From Chloroflexota bacterium (GTDB lineage: Bacteria > Chloroflexota > Dehalococcoidia > Bin125), in contig JAPPJZ010000033.1 of assembly GCA_028874365.1 (NCBI GenBank), positions 1 through 64,000 on the forward strand: a stretch of 64,000 nucleotides of DNA, given 5' to 3'. Below the pieces are notes generated by a model. That model worked only from the letters and a program-made list of their open reading frames with translations. It was not told where the DNA came from and did not search any database. This document shows positions 3,570 through 56,191 of the stretch, piece after piece (position 1 is the stretch's first letter; each line of letters opens with the position of its first letter). The position numbers and the translations under genes are program-made.

Positions 3570-6479
3570 CTACGACGCGGCCACTGCTTCGGCGGGTGCG
3601 CGCCAGCCATGCTGGGCCAACACATCCTGCAAGAATTGGCCGGTGTAGGAGCCTTTCTCGAGCGCCACATCCTCCGGCGTGCCCTCCGCCACCACCTGTC
3701 CACCGCGGTCTCCACCAAGCGGTCCGAGGTCGATAATCCAGTCGGCGTTCTTGATCACGTCGAGGTGATGCTCGATCACGACGACCGTGTTGCCGGCGTC
3801 GACGAGCTGCTGCAATACCTGCAGCAGCGCCTCGACATCCGAGAACGAGAGGCCGGTCGTCGGCTCGTCGAGCAGATAGAGCGTGCGCCCCGTCGAGCGC
3901 TTCGAGAGCTCCGTGGACAGCTTGACTCGCTGCGCTTCACCGCCCGACAGCGTGGTCGCCGGCTGGCCGAGCTTGATGTATCCCAGACCGACCGCCTGCA
4001 GGGTGCGCAGCTTGCGTGAGACGGTCGGGTTGGCGTCGAACAACGCCGCCGCTTCGTCGACGGTCATGTTGAGGATGTCGGCGATCGTCTGATTCTTGTA
4101 GCGGATCTCCAGCGCTTCGCGGTTGTAGCGATCGCCCTGGCAGACCTCGCAGGGGACGGTCACGTCGGGCAGGAACTGCATCTCGATCGTGTTGTAGCCG
4201 TCGCCCTTGCAGGCCTCACAGCGGCCGCCCTTGACGTTGAACGAGAAGCGGCCCGGCTTGTAGCCCCGCATCCGCGATTCCGGCACGGAGGCGAACAGCT
4301 CGCGGACCGGCGTGAACAGGCCCGTGTAGGTCGCCGGATTCGAGCGCGGCGTGCGGCCGATCGGCGACTGGTCGATGTCGATCACCTTGTCGATCGCGTC
4401 CAGTCCCTGCAGCCCGCGCATTAATCCCGGACGCCGACGCGCGCCGTGCAACTGCTGCGCAGCCGAGGCGTGCAGCAGATCGTTGACCAGCGTGCTCTTG
4501 CCCGACCCGGAGACGCCGGTCACGCAGATGAACGTGCCCAGCGGGAATGTGGCGTCGATGTCGCGCAAGTTGTGCTCCGATGCGCCCAGCACGGTGAGCT
4601 CGTCGCCGTTGCCCGGGCGCCGCTGGGCTGGCATCGGAATGCTGCGCCGACCGCTCAGATAGTCGCCGGTCATCGAGCCGTCGTACTCCATGATCGTCGA
4701 AGGCGGACCCGCTGCGACGATTCGGCCGCCTGCTTCACCGGCGCCCGGTCCCATGTCCACGATGTAGTCGGCCGCGCGCATGGTCGCCTCGTCGTGCTCA
4801 ACGATCAGCACGGTGTTACCGAGGTCGCGCAGCCGCTTGAGCGTGCGGATGAGCCGCTCATCGTCGAGCGGATGCAGTCCAATCGAGGGTTCGTCGCAGA
4901 CGTAGAGCACGCCCATCAGGGACGAGCCAATCTGCGTTGCCAGCCGAATCCGTTGCGCCTCGCCGCCCGAGAGCGTGGCCGCCGCACGGTCGAGGGTGAG
5001 GTAGTCCAGCCCGACATCGACGAGGAAGGTCAACCGCTCGCGGATCTCTTTGAGGATCTGCGTGGCGATCGCCATCTCTCGTGGAGTCAACGGCGTGTGC
5101 TCGCTGCTCAGGCGGTTCGCCCAGAGCGACGCCTCGGAAACCGACATCCGCGTGACATCGACAATCGAGCGCTCATCAACCTGGACCGCCAGCGACTCGG
5201 CTTTGAGTCGTGCGCCGCCGCAGGCGGAGCAGTTGACGGCGGTCATGTACCGCTCGATCTCCGTGCGTGACCAGTCCGAGTCGGTCTCGCGGTGGCGCCG
5301 GTCGAGGTTGTGCACCACGCCCTCGAACTGCGTCTCGTATCGCCGATGCCGCCCGCGATGGTTGACGAAGTCCACGACGATCGGCTCGGGCAGCCCGTAC
5401 AGGACGGCGTCGACCAACTCGTCCGGCAGATCGTCGAACGGTGCGTCGGTCTCGGCGTCGAACTGCTCGAAGACCGCTTCCAGCATGCGTCGATGCCAGC
5501 CGGTGTGCGTGGTCGATCGCGACCACGGCGCAATCGCACCCTGATCGAGTGACTTCGAACGGTCGGGCAGCACGAGCAGAGGATCGACTTGCATTGTGAT
5601 CCCGAGACCGGTGCAATCGGGACAGGCGCCGTGCGGCGAGTTGAAGGAGAACGAGCGCGGCTCAATCTCGCCCAGCGCGAACATGTCGCGCGGACAGGCC
5701 AGTTGCTCCGAGAAGATCAGGTCGTCGTCGGCATCGAGCGGTCGTACACGCACGATGCCGTCGCCCAGGCCGAGCGCCTGCTCGATCGAGTCGGCCATCC
5801 GATTGGCGAGGATGGTTCGGTCTTCGTCGTCAACCTCTTCGGCCGGCAATGCGATGCGGTCGATGATCACATCGATCGCGTGGTTCTTGTTCTTCTCCAG
5901 CTCGATCTCGTCGTCCAACGACAGCACTTCACCGTCGACGCGGACTCGAACGAAGCCTCGATTGCGCGCGTCCTCGAAGACGCCCTTGTGCTCACCTTTG
6001 CGGTCGCGCACGACCGGCGCCATGATCATCAACCGGCGCCGCTCGCCGAGGCCCATCACGGCGTCGACCATCTGCTGGACCGTCTGTTGCGCGATTGGGT
6101 CGCCGCAGATCGGGCAGTGCGGGCGGCCCGCGCGAGCGAAGAGCAGACGCAGGTAGTCGTAGATCTCGGTGACCGTCCCGACCGTCGAGCGCGGGTTGCG
6201 AGAGCCGGTCTTCTGGTCGATCGAGATCGCCGGTGACAGTCCCTCGATGTAATCGACGTCCGGTTTCTCCATCCGGCCCAGGAACTGTCGAGCGTAGGCC
6301 GAGAGCGACTCGACGTATCGGCGTTGCCCCTCGGCGTAGATCGTGTCGAAGGCCAGCGACGACTTGCCCGAGCCGGACAGGCCGGTGATCACGACCAGCT
6401 TGTCGCGCGGCAGTTCAACGTCGATGTCTTTGAGATTGTGTTCCCGCGCGCCGCGGACCAGAATCCGATCTGCCGGCAC
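3570..6479 (-). CDS. uvrA: Excinuclease ABC subunit A
   Basis: Damage-recognition ATPase of nucleotide excision repair; it loads UvrB (encoded near 17.6 kb) onto distorted DNA. The 969 residues hold two ABC ATPase modules. The first has Walker [14 protein letters not shown] near residue 33 and signature [13 protein letters not shown]. The second has [13 protein letters not shown] near residue 640 and [13 protein letters not shown], followed by LLDEPTTGL. The zinc sites [15 protein letters not shown] and CEACKGDG...CEVCQGD are present. Length and domain order are ordinary for UvrA. It is divergent from polA with a 98-bp shared promoter region, in which I see no convincing SOS box. Confidence 0.97.
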
Positions 6480-29307: not shown

Positions 29308-29868
29308 TCAGTCTCGTTCGATCTCTTGCTGCAACTTCTGCTGCAGGGCCGCCAGCGCCGACCAACGGTCGTCAACCGGCGCTTCCGACGTGGATTCGGT
29401 CTCAAGTCCGGGACAATCCTGGCCGCAGCGCGGGCTCATCGGACGCCCCATCTCTACGTATTGTCGCACGGCCTCCGACAAATCGAGTTGCCCGTCGATT
29501 ACAGAAAACCCGATCTGTTCCTGCGGCGGCTGCAGATACTCGTCCGACGCCGCCTCCGCCGGCGGCCAGAACTCCTCGTCGAACGACAGCGCAAGCGGCA
29601 GCGTCATCTCGCACAAGCAACCCCCGCAAAGGTCAGCGACGACCGTCGACAGTTCCGCGGTCGCAAGGATCGAGTGGTCGGTGCGCAGCAGCCTGAGCGC
29701 TCCGCTGACGTCTGAGTGCAGCCCGTTGCCCCGCGCGTCCGTCACCTCGTAGCGGCGTACCGAACCAATCGGCTCCTGCAGCAGAGTCGAGACATTGAAC
29801 AGCAGCGATGTCGTGTATCGGACCGCAGAAACGGCGGCTCCGCCCGCGGCAGTCCCCTCGGCAGTCAT
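29308..29868 (-). CDS. YceD/DUF177 family protein
   Basis: A 186-residue protein of the YceD family, linked to 23S rRNA metabolism and nearly always placed before rpmF. Seen: LLQEPIGSVRRYEV, the LLRTDHSILATAEL segment, the Cys-rich strand VVADLCGGCLCEMTLPL, and C-terminal CGQDCPG, which are the family's conserved Cys positions. The N-terminal 15 residues are Gly/Ala-rich filler. It heads the rpmF-fabD-nusB-acpP run. Confidence 0.88.
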   Translation of the reverse strand: MTAEGTAAGGAAVSAVRYTTSLLFNVSTLLQEPIGSVRRYEVTDARGNGLHSDVSGALRLLRTDHSILATAELSTVVADLCGGCLCEMTLPLALSFDEEFWPPAEAASDEYLQPPQEQIGFSVIDGQLDLSEAVRQYVEMGRPMSPRCGQDCPGLETESTSEAPVDDRWSALAALQQKLQQEIERD

Positions 29869-30031
29869 GGTGCGCCCAGCGTATCAGCGGCATCGATGGA
29901 CTCACGCCGGCGTTGCTGCGATATTGGCTATCCCAGTCGTCGCGCATACACTCAACACACCGGGTGACTCAGTCCTGACCGAGTTCCCCTGCGCCCGTTC
30001 CCGCCGCCAACAACGAAAATGAGTCGCCCTC

Positions 30032-30727
30032 ATGGACCTTGAAGGGATGCAGCAACTCCAGGATGTTGACATCCAGCGGGATCAGGCCAAGCGCGAACTC
30101 CAGGCTGTGCTCGACCAGATCTCCGACCCGCCCTTCATCGATCAGCTCGATGCCGAACTCGCGGCGCAGGAGGAAGAGGCTCGCCTCGCCGACCAGTCCG
30201 TGCGCGAGGCGCACGCCGTCGTGCAGACCGCCCAGCGCCGCATAGAAGTCACCGACCAGCGCCTCTATTCCGGCTCGATCACCGACCATCGCACGCTGGA
30301 GGAACTGCAGCGCGATCTGTATGCCCAGCGTCAGCAACTCCCGCCGCTCACCGAAGCAGAGAACCGCGCCAGCTATGAAGCCGAGCAGGCGCACGACGCC
30401 AGCGGCTGGCTGCAACAACTCCGCACCGCCGCCCTCGATGTCTGGAACGCTCGCCAGGGCGAACTGGAAGGCGAGCGGCACGAAGCCCAGGAACGAGTCG
30501 ACGAGTTCGCCCGACAGGCCGAGGTCCTGCGCGACAAGCTCACCCAGGACGACCTCGATACCTACGACCAGTACCGCCGCCGCCGACCGCGAGTCGTCGC
30601 CACGGTCGCGGGAGGCGTCTGCGCCGAGTGCCGCCTGACCTTACCCACGATCGTCGTCACACGAGCTCGCCGCGGAACCCGCGCCGTCGAGTGTCCATCC
30701 TGCGGCTGTCTGCTCCGCGTCGCCTGA
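30032..30727 (+). CDS. Coiled-coil C4-type zinc-ribbon protein
   Basis: A 231-residue protein of the widespread family with a long antiparallel coiled coil (about residues 1-180) and a C-terminal zinc ribbon (GGVCAECRLTLPT...VECPSCGCLLRV). Family members are thought to bind nucleic acid or be adaptor proteins; biochemical roles are poorly known. It is divergent from the YceD operon. A TACACT box lies about 85 bp upstream, and no strong Shine-Dalgarno sequence is present. Confidence 0.88.
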   Translation: MDLEGMQQLQDVDIQRDQAKRELQAVLDQISDPPFIDQLDAELAAQEEEARLADQSVREAHAVVQTAQRRIEVTDQRLYSGSITDHRTLEELQRDLYAQRQQLPPLTEAENRASYEAEQAHDASGWLQQLRTAALDVWNARQGELEGERHEAQERVDEFARQAEVLRDKLTQDDLDTYDQYRRRRPRVVATVAGGVCAECRLTLPTIVVTRARRGTRAVECPSCGCLLRVA

Positions 30728-30819
30728 ACCCGACTTCTCTCCGCGCAATCCTGTCAACGACTCCCACCGACTTGTCAACAGCCGTCAACCCACTTCTAGT
30801 CCTGCCGCTGCGCGCCGCA

Positions 30820-30831
30820 TAGCATCGCCCT
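30820..30831 (+). promoter_or_regulatory. Leaderless-type promoter box of the recombinase-like gene
   Basis: TAGCAT, six bases, then GTG. It sits at the end of a 104-bp non-coding gap after the zinc-ribbon gene. Confidence 0.55.
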
Positions 30832-32277
30832 GTGCGAGCCATCGGATACCTCAGCCAGCCCAGCATTCACGCGTCGCGGACCGAGGACCCCGCTTCGGTC
30901 CAGCCGTCACTGGTGACGCAGAACGCCAACTTCCTCGACTACTGCCAGTGCAACGGTTTCGAGCCGACCGCAACCTTCCTCGACGCTGACACGACCCCCG
31001 GTCGCGAGCGTCCCGGCCTACGCCAACTGCTCCGGCACCTCAACGAGGAAGCGCGCGGCTTCACCTTCGTCATCGTCCAGAACTTCAGCAATCTCGGCCA
31101 CGACGCCACCCACGCAGTGCGAACCGTACTCCAACTGCGGGCTCGCGGCGTACAGCTCGTCTCCTTGGATGACGGGCCGGTTGACGAATCTTCCCTGATC
31201 GATCTCTGGAGACTGCATAGCGATCCCGATCCCGACGCCGACCGTCGCCGCGAGCGAATGCACGAGCGCGCCCGCCTGGGCCAGGCGATCGGACGTCCCC
31301 CGTACGGCTATCGCGTGGGCGACGACGGCCGCTACGAGATCGATGACGATGAAGCGCCAGTCGTGCGACGCATCTTCAGCCTCTACCTGCACGAAGGACT
31401 CGGTATCCGCCGCATCGCCCAGCGACTCAACGAGCAAGGCCTGCAGACTCGACGCGGACGCAACTGGAGCATGGTCAGCATTCGCGACCTGCTGCGCAAT
31501 CCGGTCTACATCGGCCGCTACGACAAGCTCGGCGTCACCGTCGCCGCCAATCACCACGCGATCGTCTCCGAGCCCGACTTCGCCGCCGTCGGACGGCAGA
31601 TGGCCGAACGTCGGACCGCGCCCGGCATCAGCCATCCGTCCGACTTCCTGCTCGCCGGTCTCGTCTGGTGCGGCGAAGATCGCACGCGCATGATCGGCGT
31701 CACCCGACGACAACAATGGCGTCTCGCCAGCGGCGAGACCGCCGCCGCGACCTATCGCTACTACCAGTCCGAGGCCCGCACCAACCAGTCGGTCGGCGGA
31801 TACCACACCCGTCGCGCCGACGAGCTGGAGGAGGAAGTCCTCGCCCACATCCGCGGCGAACGGCAGGGTGGTGAAATCGCCGTGCTCAACATCGGCCGAG
31901 ACGACACTGCGCTCGCCGCCGAGACCGCCGTCGCCGTCTCCTCGGCGGAGTCGCGCCTGCGAGCCATCGACCGCAAACTGGCCCAGCTACTGGAGGACGC
32001 CGCCGGCGGCGATCCGCCGCCGTCCTCGCTACACGAGGCCGGAGCCGACATCATCACCGAGTGGGAAGCGGCAAGCGCCGATCTCGCCCAGATCAAGGAC
32101 CGCGCGCTCGCCCAGGAGCGAGAAGCCGACCGCCGCCGCCGTCGAGATCAGCGCCTGCACAAAGTCCGTGAGGACTGGGACGACCTCAACTTCCCCCAGC
32201 AAAGAGACCTGATCGAGCAGCTCGTCGAACAAGTCGTCGTCTTCGACGACTCCGTCACCACCCAACTCAAAGCCTGA
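30832..32277 (+). CDS. Serine-recombinase homologue lacking catalytic residues
   Basis: A 481-residue protein with the full layout of a large serine recombinase: resolvase-like N-domain (1-150), recombinase DNA-binding domain (GRPPYGYRV, then FSLYLHEGLGIRRIAQRLNEQG, RGRNWSMVSIRDLLRNPVYIGRY), a zinc-ribbon-like domain and a coiled coil. The active site is gone. Where gamma-delta resolvase has YARVS, this has YLSQP, so Arg8 and the nucleophile Ser10 are lost. Where resolvases have DRLGRD, this has SNLGHD, losing Arg68 and Arg71. The zinc-ribbon cysteines are also missing except one (VWCGEDRTRM). The frame is intact, so a non-recombining DNA-binding role is the best inference. No attachment site or element is seen around it. 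Confidence 0.85.
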   Translation: MRAIGYLSQPSIHASRTEDPASVQPSLVTQNANFLDYCQCNGFEPTATFLDADTTPGRERPGLRQLLRHLNEEARGFTFVIVQNFSNLGHDATHAVRTVLQLRARGVQLVSLDDGPVDESSLIDLWRLHSDPDPDADRRRERMHERARLGQAIGRPPYGYRVGDDGRYEIDDDEAPVVRRIFSLYLHEGLGIRRIAQRLNEQGLQTRRGRNWSMVSIRDLLRNPVYIGRYDKLGVTVAANHHAIVSEPDFAAVGRQMAERRTAPGISHPSDFLLAGLVWCGEDRTRMIGVTRRQQWRLASGETAAATYRYYQSEARTNQSVGGYHTRRADELEEEVLAHIRGERQGGEIAVLNIGRDDTALAAETAVAVSSAESRLRAIDRKLAQLLEDAAGGDPPPSSLHEAGADIITEWEAASADLAQIKDRALAQEREADRRRRRDQRLHKVREDWDDLNFPQQRDLIEQLVEQVVVFDDSVTTQLKA

Positions 32278-32299: not shown

Positions 32300-32348
32300 C
32301 CTCTCCCCCCGCGCAGCGGGGGGAGATGCCGAAGGCAGAGGGGGGCAT
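32300..32348 (+). repeat. Palindromic repeat, family A
   Basis: A 49-bp element with core CCCCCCGC-GCAGCGGGGGG followed by AGATGCCGAAGGCAGAGGGG. Near-identical copies lie at 33999, 53443 and 56142, and a truncated one near 57147. It lies between the recombinase-like gene and rnhA. Confidence 0.8.
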
Positions 32349-32376: not shown

Positions 32377-32772
32377 ATGCACCTCATCGCCTACGCCGAC
32401 GGCGCCTCGCGCGGCAACCCGGGGCCGGCCGCCTATGGCGCAGTCCTCTGCGACCCCGACGGCGCGGAGCTCGACGCCTGGGGCAACCCGATTGGCCGCG
32501 CGACCAACAACGTCGCCGAGTACCACGGAGCCATCGCGGCAGTCGAAGCCGCCTTGGAACGCGGCGCAACCGAACTCGAACTCCGGCTCGACTCCGAGCT
32601 GATCGTCCGACAGCTCGAGGGTCGCTACCGCGTCAAGAACAAGCAGCTCAAGCCCCTCTTCGACCAGCTCAGCGCCCTCATTGACCGGCTGGACTCATTC
32701 CAGCCCACGCACGTCCGCCGAAACCTGAACCAGCGCGCCGACGCCATGGCCAACGAAGCCCTGGATCGTTGA
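32377..32772 (+). CDS. rnhA: Ribonuclease HI
   Basis: A 131-residue RNase H that cuts RNA in RNA-DNA hybrids. Catalytic acids are visible: Asp in AYADGASRGNPGPA, Glu in NNVAEYHGAIAAVE, Asp in ELRLDSELIVRQL, and Asp in NQRADAMANEA. It is the short form without a hybrid-binding domain. The RNase P RNA gene begins 30 bp downstream on the same strand. Confidence 0.94.
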   Translation: MHLIAYADGASRGNPGPAAYGAVLCDPDGAELDAWGNPIGRATNNVAEYHGAIAAVEAALERGATELELRLDSELIVRQLEGRYRVKNKQLKPLFDQLSALIDRLDSFQPTHVRRNLNQRADAMANEALDR

Positions 32773-32801: not shown

Positions 32802-33200
32802 GCCAGGCCGCCGGGCGGTCGCGGTTCCCGACCGGGTCTGACCTGGTCGGGGATCGAGGAAAGTCCGGGCTCCACGGGACAGGGCGCTGGGTAACTCCCA
32901 GGCAGGGCAACCTGACGGAAAGCGCACAGAAACATACCGCCTACCCGTTCTCGCTTCGGCGAGAACGGCGGCAAGGGTGAGATGGTGCGGTAAGAGCGCA
33001 CCAGCGGTCGGGTGACCGGCCGGCTGAGCAAGCCCCGCCCGGAGCAAGACCAAATAGGGAGGCAATGGCTCGTCCCGGGCCGTCTCCGGGTAGGTCGCTC
33101 GAGGCGGCGGGCAACCGTCGTCCCAGATGGATGATCGCCACCCGATGCCCGGCGCAACCCGTGGCATCGGGAACAGAACCCGGCTTACAGGCGGCCTGGC
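32802..33200 (+). ncRNA. rnpB: RNase P RNA (bacterial type)
   Basis: The catalytic RNA that trims tRNA 5' ends. Conserved blocks are all present in order: GAGGAAAGTCCGGGCTCCA at 32857, AGGGCAACCTGACGGAAAG, ACAGAAACATACC, GGTAAGAGCGCACCAG, GCAAGACCAAATAGGGAGGC, and ACAGAACCCGGCTTACAGG near the 3' end. The ends are set by helix P1, where GCCAGGCCGCC at the 5' end pairs perfectly with GGCGGCCTGGC at the 3' end. A TACAGT box at 32789 stands seven bases before the 5' end. The DNA of this stretch also holds open frames on both strands, which are not genes. Confidence 0.95.
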
Positions 33201-33221
33201 CTTCCGACTCCCTCTCCGGTC

Positions 33222-33266: not shown

Positions 33267-34850
33267 ATGCGGTCACAACTGCTACGCGACACTCTGCGAG
33301 AGGTGAGCGGCGCCCAGGTCTCGCGGGACGCAGATCAGCGAGTCACAGACATCACCCAGGACTCCCGATCCGTCCAACCAGGCAGCGCCTTCGTCGCCGT
33401 CCCCGGATTCACCGTCGACGGCCACCAATACATCGAGTCCGCCATCGTCAACGGCGCAGCCGCCCTGATCGTCCAGTACGACCGTCGCCAACTCTGGCAG
33501 CCGCTCGCCGAAGCAAATCCCGATATCGCCATCGTCAGCGTCGACGACACCCGCGCCGCCCTCCCCCAGATTGCCGCCGCCTTCTACGACTACCCGGCGC
33601 GCAGACTCACCGTCGTCGGAGTCACCGGCACCGACGGCAAATCCACCACCACCTACCTCACCCACGCGATCCTCAACGCCGCCGGACACCAAACGGGCCT
33701 GCTCAATGGCGTCGAGTTCCATATCGGCGGCGAGTGGACCCGCAACGAGACCGGCGAGACTACGCCCGAAGCCGACATCATCCAGGCCAGGCTCGCCGAG
33801 ATGGTCGCCGCCGGCGACACCCACGCCGTCCTCGAAGTCAGCTCCCACGCCCTCGAACTCCACCGAGCCGATCAGATCAACACCAAGGTCGCCGTCTTCA
33901 CCGGCCTCTCCGACGACCACCTCGACTTCCACCAGACCCGGGAACAATACCTCGCTGCCAAACTCAAGCTGTTCCGCAGTCTCGACAACCACCAGGTTCC
34001 TCTCTCCCCCCGCGAAGCGGGGGGAGATGCCGCAGGCAGAGGGGGGCTCCCCACCTCGCCCGTCGCCGTCGTCCGAGCCGAAGACCCAACCCGGCAAACG
34101 ATCGAGTCCTCCCACAACCAACAGACAGTCATCGCCACCGCAACGCCCGATACCGTCTCCGACGTCAGCGTCATAGCCAGTTCGCAGGACGCTCGAGGTT
34201 CCGACGTCCGAGTCGTCACCCCCGCCGGAGCGCTGGGCGCGCGACTCCCCATCCTCGGCGATTACAACCTCGGCAACGCCGCGCTCGCCGTCGGCGCAGC
34301 CTGGAGCCTCGGCGTCGGACCGGTCCCGATGCAGGCCGCCCTGAACACGCTCCGACCCATCCCCGGCCGGATGGAAACCATCGACGAAGGCCAACCCTTC
34401 ACCGTCATCGTCGACGCCGCCGCCACCGGACCGGCCCTCGACCTCGCCCTCAAGACGCTCAAGCCGCACATCCGCGGACGCCTGATCCTCGTCTTCGGCG
34501 TCGCCGGCGAGCGTGACCCGATCCGCAAGTCCAGCATGGCAGCGGCCGCCGCAACCTACGCCGACCACACCGTGATCACGAACGAGAACCCGCGCTCGGA
34601 GGACCCCGTCGAGATGGTCGACGAGATCGCCGCTCACCTCGTCGAGGCCGGCGGCGAGTCGTTTGAGAAGCAGCCCGACCGCCGCGAGGCCATCAGCCGC
34701 GCGATCGCCCTCGCACAGCCCGACGACCTCGTCCTGATCGCCGGCAAAGGCGCCGAACCCACCCTGATCTATGCAGACCGTGTCGAACCCTGGGATGACC
34801 GCGAAGTCGCGCGCGCCGCACTGAACAGCCTCAACACTCTGCGTACTTGA
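33267..34850 (+). CDS. Divergent MurE-like Mur ligase
   Basis: A 527-residue ATP-dependent Mur ligase closest in layout to MurE (UDP-MurNAc-L-Ala-D-Glu:diamino acid ligase). The N-domain (DITQDSRSVQPGSAFVAVPG), ATP loop (GVTGTDGKSTTT), SSHALELHR and the lysine region AAKLKLFRSLD are MurE-like. Key C-domain motifs differ: the usual DYAHTPD reads DAAATGP, DNPR reads ENPR, and GKGHE reads GKGAE. A palindromic repeat is inserted in frame near residues 245-262. No other mur gene is in the window. It may act on a different acceptor, or the lineage may have an unusual wall; both are inference. Confidence 0.82.
   Translation: MRSQLLRDTLREVSGAQVSRDADQRVTDITQDSRSVQPGSAFVAVPGFTVDGHQYIESAIVNGAAALIVQYDRRQLWQPLAEANPDIAIVSVDDTRAALPQIAAAFYDYPARRLTVVGVTGTDGKSTTTYLTHAILNAAGHQTGLLNGVEFHIGGEWTRNETGETTPEADIIQARLAEMVAAGDTHAVLEVSSHALELHRADQINTKVAVFTGLSDDHLDFHQTREQYLAAKLKLFRSLDNHQVPLSPREAGGDAAGRGGLPTSPVAVVRAEDPTRQTIESSHNQQTVIATATPDTVSDVSVIASSQDARGSDVRVVTPAGALGARLPILGDYNLGNAALAVGAAWSLGVGPVPMQAALNTLRPIPGRMETIDEGQPFTVIVDAAATGPALDLALKTLKPHIRGRLILVFGVAGERDPIRKSSMAAAAATYADHTVITNENPRSEDPVEMVDEIAAHLVEAGGESFEKQPDRREAISRAIALAQPDDLVLIAGKGAEPTLIYADRVEPWDDREVARAALNSLNTLRT
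33999..34049 (+). repeat. Family A repeat inserted in frame in the MurE-like gene
   Basis: The same element as at 32300, here inside a coding sequence and encoding LSPREAGGDAAGRGG-type residues. It is 51 bp, a multiple of three, and carries no stop in this frame. It falls between the lysine motif and the ADDP-like strand (VRAEDPTRQ) of the central domain. Confidence 0.85.
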
Positions 34851-53442: not shown

Positions 53443-53491
53443 CCTCTCCCCCCGCGCAGCAGGGGGAGATGCCGAAGGCAGAGGGGGGCAT
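53443..53491 (+). repeat. Palindromic repeat, family A
   Basis: A 49-bp copy between the thiolase and DUF35 genes, differing from the 32300 copy by about one base. It separates two genes that would otherwise be adjacent. Confidence 0.8.
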
Positions 53492-56141: not shown

Positions 56142-56191
56142 CCTCTCCCCCCGCGCCAGCGGGGGGAGATGCCGCAGGCAGAGGGGGGCAT
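56142..56191 (+). repeat. Palindromic repeat, family A
   Basis: A 50-bp copy with the loop CGCGCCAGCG, upstream of the Cu/Zn superoxide dismutase gene. Confidence 0.8.

Follow-up and report, generated by a model that had tools for sequence, protein, structure and literature searches.

Large serine recombinases (LSRs) such as PhiC31, Bxb1, A118 and SPbeta SprA, together with those of the NCBIfam models XisF and Ccr, are alike in domain order and modelled fold to the gene described here, designated REC. Compared with these LSRs, however, REC has no active site, occupies a fixed, vertically inherited, single-copy locus unlinked to any mobile element, and has its conservation shifted to the DNA-binding domains. 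Recruitment of a serine recombinase by host genomes is known from Hin (reviewed in PMC8987985). Hin and excision recombinases such as XisF are host-recruited serine recombinases, like REC, but they work through recombination, which REC would not be expected to do. In MrpR, the master repressor of the Bacillus subtilis prophage SPbeta, a recombinase fold has lost its catalytic residues and acts as a DNA-binding repressor (PMC10516654), an example indicating that a recombinase fold can become a DNA-binding regulator. MrpR and REC share the recombinase fold with lost catalytic residues, and for MrpR the role as a DNA-binding repressor is known; however, MrpR has a tyrosine-recombinase fold, is encoded by a prophage and acts on that prophage, whereas REC has a serine-recombinase fold and is chromosomal. 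Recombinase folds turned into DNA-binding proteins are already known, but a serine-type, class-wide example was not found in the literature searched, nor was any case of a dead or domesticated serine recombinase like REC.

The stretch analysed (the window) comprises 64,000 nt of DNA from a Chloroflexota bacterium (GCA_028874365.1, contig JAPPJZ010000033.1), and all coordinates refer to it. REC, a catalytically dead LSR of 481 amino acids with a GTG start, lies at 30832-32277 on the forward strand, as assigned from the open reading frame, Pfam, relatives and alignment. A preliminary description of this DNA gave the coordinates, the intact frame and the 481-codon length correctly, and its claim of a full-length serine recombinase is borne out by three Pfam domains in the LSR order: Resolvase (41 bits), Recombinase (78 bits) and recombinase zinc ribbon (29 bits). 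All three exceed the Pfam gathering scores, making REC an LSR by homology. The N-terminal catalytic-type domain (aa 1-135, 30832-31236, forward strand), defined by Pfam, alignment and structural matching, has kept its fold and lost its active site. It is followed on the same strand by the Recombinase (DNA-binding) domain (aa 150-262, 31279-31617), the zinc-ribbon domain (aa 270-345, 31639-31866) and a long antiparallel coiled coil (aa 352-451, 31885-32184), the last taken from an AlphaFold2 model. This model, built from 14 alignment rows (mean pLDDT 74.7), shows all the LSR parts including the coiled coil, so that the predicted fold would be that of an LSR, with low inter-domain confidence in the full-length model (pTM 0.35) and domain placement that is not reliable. 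Among solved structures, LSRs come closest (SPbeta integrase, Bxb1, PhiC31 and A118); 9y66, 9iu2 and 9rah match over the whole length, and single domains match at low rmsd. Taken by itself, the N-terminal part aligns structurally with the catalytic domain of TP901-1 (3bvp_B) with a Z score of 14.8 over 122 residues at 3.1 A.

Six nucleotides upstream of the GTG, a -10-like box, TAGCAT (30820-30825, forward strand), was recognised by eye in aligned spacers. The wider box, CATA(G/A)CAT, is kept at this distance in 15 of 15 congeners, which supports the leaderless start proposed in the preliminary description; a generic sigma-70 scan with a simple consensus found no promoter for REC. In the spacers at 29869-30031 and 30728-30831, conserved -10-like boxes precede the yceD and REC starts, respectively, by a few bases, which suggests that leaderless transcripts are common in this lineage.

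Alignment with gamma-delta resolvase confirmed that YARVS has been replaced by YLSQP (aa 6-10, 30847-30861, forward strand) and DRLGRD by SNLGHD (aa 86-91, 31087-31104, forward strand). Residue by residue, Arg8 has become Ser, Ser10 Pro, Gln14 Ala, Ser39 Thr, Asp67 Ser, Arg68 Asn and Arg71 His, and the equivalents of Tyr6, Asp36 and Arg45 are retained; the His90 position is Arg in one congener (L028). The claim that every catalytic residue had been lost is therefore right for Arg8, Ser10, Gln14, Arg68 and Arg71 but slightly too broad, as the equivalents of Asp36 and Arg45 remain. Among canonical LSRs drawn from related genomes, Arg8, Ser10, Gln14, Arg45 and Arg68 are invariant in the 20 that could be scored at these sites, and Arg71 is invariant in all 21. 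The active-site set is present in every complete canonical LSR and missing from all 111 deduplicated dead relatives, none of which has Ser10 together with Arg68 or Arg71, so the loss is common to the whole family. Ser10 occurs by chance in members of the YFRES type; about eight of these were checked and none has Arg68 or Arg71. REC is thus an LSR by fold, but by function it fails as an enzyme, lacking the Ser10 nucleophile with Arg8, Arg68 and Arg71. Residual recombination or cleavage through a rearranged active site could draw on the persisting Asp36 and Arg45 equivalents, but the nucleophile position is free to vary over the family (A, G, T, P, L, S, N or R) with no replacement conserved, and we regard such activity as highly improbable.

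One strong REC relative was found by protein search in each of the 15 genomes of the genus, and a relative is present in 20 of 20 sampled genomes of the family. Using a profile built from 31 members, REC was identified as a single copy per genome in 126 of 245 sampled genomes of the class Dehalococcoidia. Among 251 genomes drawn over the phylum, every profile match fell inside the class and none outside, and the named records among the relatives are Dehalococcoidia or Chloroflexota metagenome-assembled genomes. Against the 31-member profile, no dead-family member scores below 243 bits and no ordinary LSR above 178 bits, with a single protein, L152, falling between (240 bits). L152 has an intact active site (motifs YARVS and LDRFGRN), was counted as a second match in its genome, G105, which also holds the dead copy L108, lies at 3797-5329 on the reverse strand away from the REC locus, and, as the nearest intact relative, falls in the tree immediately beside the dead clade and not within it (95/89). 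No broken frames occur among the 111 deduplicated relatives. A few lineages (L129, L138 and L140) have shortened or eroded N-terminal domains. Neither an intact relative at the REC locus nor a frameshifted copy was found, and on both points the preliminary description holds.

A single branch divides the dead family from 20 ordinary LSRs, with an SH-aLRT of 98 when only the DNA-binding columns are used and 100/100 support in the full-length tree. Because the dead members form one side of one branch, the simplest reading of the sequences is that the active site would have been lost once. Shortening of helix E gave no clean separation of the dead and active groups. Pairwise distances of REC track those of ZNR (a coiled-coil, zinc-ribbon protein), RNase HI, YceD and FabD (r 0.78-0.84; 0 of 999 permutations), as vertical inheritance predicts. 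REC has neither the mobile or variable location nor the phage or plasmid presence of a mobile-element integrase, and the phage, plasmid and viral records or contigs searched yielded no member. A phage or plasmid origin was also sought, and the searches gave only ordinary LSRs with less than 30% identity over part of the protein. Domestication of REC from a mobile-element integrase is well supported, and the checks put forward in the preliminary description (a shared loss, selection and synteny) all speak for it.

The locus itself is conserved over the class. At left, yceD (DUF177; 29308-29868, reverse strand) forms a divergent upstream flank followed by rpmF and fabD, and at right lie RNase HI (32377-32772), the class A RNase P RNA gene rnpB (32803-33203) and murE (33267-34850), all on the forward strand. 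The preliminary description had placed RNase HI and RNase P RNA beside REC; both are confirmed, and their synteny with REC is conserved. Nearly all REC copies sit between ZNR and RNase HI, beside rnpB. ZNR (30032-30727, forward strand), a coiled-coil protein with a C4 zinc ribbon, similar to COG1579/CdsZ, lies directly upstream in nearly all members, and RNase HI is often directly downstream. In seven related genomes without REC, RNase HI comes directly after ZNR, with 27-108 bp between them. This is the very junction at which REC sits in its bearers, and no REC remnant was recognised after ZNR in the genomes lacking it. Placed between ZNR and RNase HI and beside rnpB, REC might serve nucleic-acid housekeeping together with RNase HI, binding RNA or RNA-DNA hybrids such as R-loops instead of reading a DNA site. 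However, the ZNR-RNase HI pair exists without REC, so that the position may only mark the place where an integrase landed, and the conserved residues belong to a fold that binds DNA sites; this role seems unlikely. A c-di-AMP riboswitch (Rfam RF00379, 85.9 bits) occurs near REC in one relative (L105, 2542-2673, reverse strand).

Across the class, ZNR and REC are neighbours on the same strand, separated by few bases, and could form a transcription unit in which REC would bring the pair to its DNA sites and ZNR would engage a sigma factor or RNA polymerase. The NCBIfam model closest to ZNR is CdsZ, with a score below its cut-off. In favour of such a unit, the ZNR-like proteins CT398 and HP0958 bind RpoN, and Wcw_1456, another of them, yielded 835 peaks in ChIP and retained RpoD in a pull-down (PMC5947703, PMC6426960). 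Since relatives of ZNR are found at promoters and interact with sigma factors, the idea that both proteins act in transcription would be attractive by analogy. Against it, ZNR has been lost in 12 of 12 genomes of family f2 that keep REC (among them the loci L119, L122, L124, L131, L132, L135, L139, L141, L144, L145 and L150), and it is also absent from six genomes of f7, f54 and f61. In f2, REC still adjoins yceD, with murE near in several genomes. The neighbour is likewise missing in the divergent members L136, L138, L140, L142, L143 and L148, and ZNR persists without REC elsewhere. The two are therefore not obligate partners, and retention of REC after ZNR loss in the 12 f2 genomes indicates that its function does not need ZNR; the joint unit is doubtful, if slightly less so than the housekeeping role. 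About half of the sampled class genomes have no REC, which counts against the explanation we prefer, an ancient domesticated DNA-binding protein, and the ZNR tree is too weakly resolved to separate one gain with losses from several gains.

Purifying selection on REC is strong, as the preliminary description had led us to look for. In five close pairs (Nei-Gojobori method, own script), dN/dS spans 0.056-0.128 for the gene as a whole, and for its dead catalytic domain the range is 0.035-0.17. REC could in principle be a decaying integrase remnant that is intact by chance only; conservation is lower in the catalytic half, and there are the shortened or eroded N-terminal domains mentioned above. 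Against this stand the dN/dS of 0.06-0.13, open frames in every listed member, and a single copy in each bearing genome, at a locus shared across the class; purifying selection across genus and class refutes decay, to which we assign next to no probability.

The distribution of conservation along the protein sets the dead family apart. Among its members, mean identity reaches 56% in the recombinase domain, the most conserved part, and 50% in the zinc ribbon, against 29% in the catalytic domain; the corresponding values for active LSRs are 34%, 33% and 43%. The pattern is inverted, and the conservation of the DNA-binding domain noted in the preliminary description is borne out. Thirty-three positions are conserved in the dead family only, most of them in the two DNA-binding domains; they are rich in Arg, Tyr, Thr, His and Asn and include R193, T206, R207, R218, R222, H241, R292, R309, R316 and N318. 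The 13 positions conserved only in active LSRs are all in the catalytic domain. As would be expected of a dead-recombinase DNA-binding regulator of the MrpR kind, catalytic residues have been lost and the DNA-binding domains are under selection. Active LSRs bind differing att sites and hence make differing DNA contacts. As the contacts of the dead family no longer differ in this way, its members most likely read one sequence, to judge by these conserved positions.

The zinc ribbon, which in a functional serine recombinase would have four cysteines, calls for a qualification. Cys280 is kept in all 90 dead-family rows examined and the second cysteine is present in 82 of the 90, whereas in the window's own family three of the four are replaced (the window has Asp at position 283, Ser at 313 and Gly at 322). 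The statement that the zinc-ribbon cysteines were gone thus stands for three of them and fails for Cys280. Replacement of these three zinc ligands came later, inside the dead clade, and the zinc ribbon of the window's family may be held together differently. The lost cysteines may also weaken or alter DNA contacts, which counts against a DNA-binding role.

Preferential conservation of the DNA-binding domains and the modelled fold nevertheless make it likely that REC works as a cellular DNA-binding protein. It was probably domesticated long ago as a protein that binds specific DNA sequences, with a regulatory or architectural function, and has been inherited vertically as a single copy. The reuse as a DNA-binding regulator or chromosome-structuring protein put forward earlier is supported as regards domestication, and its specific function is still a matter of inference. 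We give an even chance to the more specific proposal that a large clade of Dehalococcoidia has a class-specific chromosomal DNA-binding factor, a regulator or DNA bridger, derived from an LSR that lost catalysis once and whose target sequence is conserved class-wide. An LSR integrase would have landed between the ZNR and RNase HI genes in the ancestor of a large part of Dehalococcoidia and lost its active site once, after which selection would have kept REC as a vertically inherited, single-copy cellular gene. REC would act as a dimer whose recombinase and zinc-ribbon domains recognise a fixed DNA sequence and leave it uncut. Dimerisation would fall to what is left of the N-terminal fold, and the coiled coil may join bound dimers and so bridge DNA. 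The outcome could be a transcription regulator or a local chromosome-architecture factor. A further use of a dimer-forming protein would be as a dominant-negative or site-occupying blocker of active LSR elements, a form of defence. The N-terminal, dimer-forming domain is still constrained, and the genomes in question often have active LSRs as well, but these are distant (18% cross identity between dead and active proteins in the catalytic domain), which makes mixed dimers or shared sites unlikely and this defence role very improbable.

As a domesticated DNA-binding protein, the REC family would illustrate the passage from integrase to permanent cellular component, and a naturally non-cutting LSR with preserved DNA-binding domains would be useful for learning their recognition apart from catalysis. 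Because REC genes match recombinase family models, the family is easily overlooked and wrongly counted as mobile DNA.

In the search for a REC target, no candidate motif held up in the divergent upstream region or the genomic repeat, which weighs against the explanation we prefer. In 15 congeners, footprinting of the spacer between yceD and ZNR revealed promoter-like conservation only and no 40-bp palindrome. A palindromic repeat, GGGGAGATGCCG(A/C)AGGCAGAGGGGG, has 67 copies in the genome, one of which adjoins REC; those in the window are at 32320-32345, 34021-34046, 53463-53488 and 56163-56188. About 60-80 copies occur in the congeners G001 and G011. The repeat was rejected as the target, being absent from G007, of the same genus, and from all sampled REC-bearing genomes of other genera. 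One copy lies in frame inside murE (about 34000-34080; LSPREAGGDAAGRGGLPTSP) and leaves the gene unbroken; this insert, missing in L006, L009 and L011, is common to five of the eight congeners compared.
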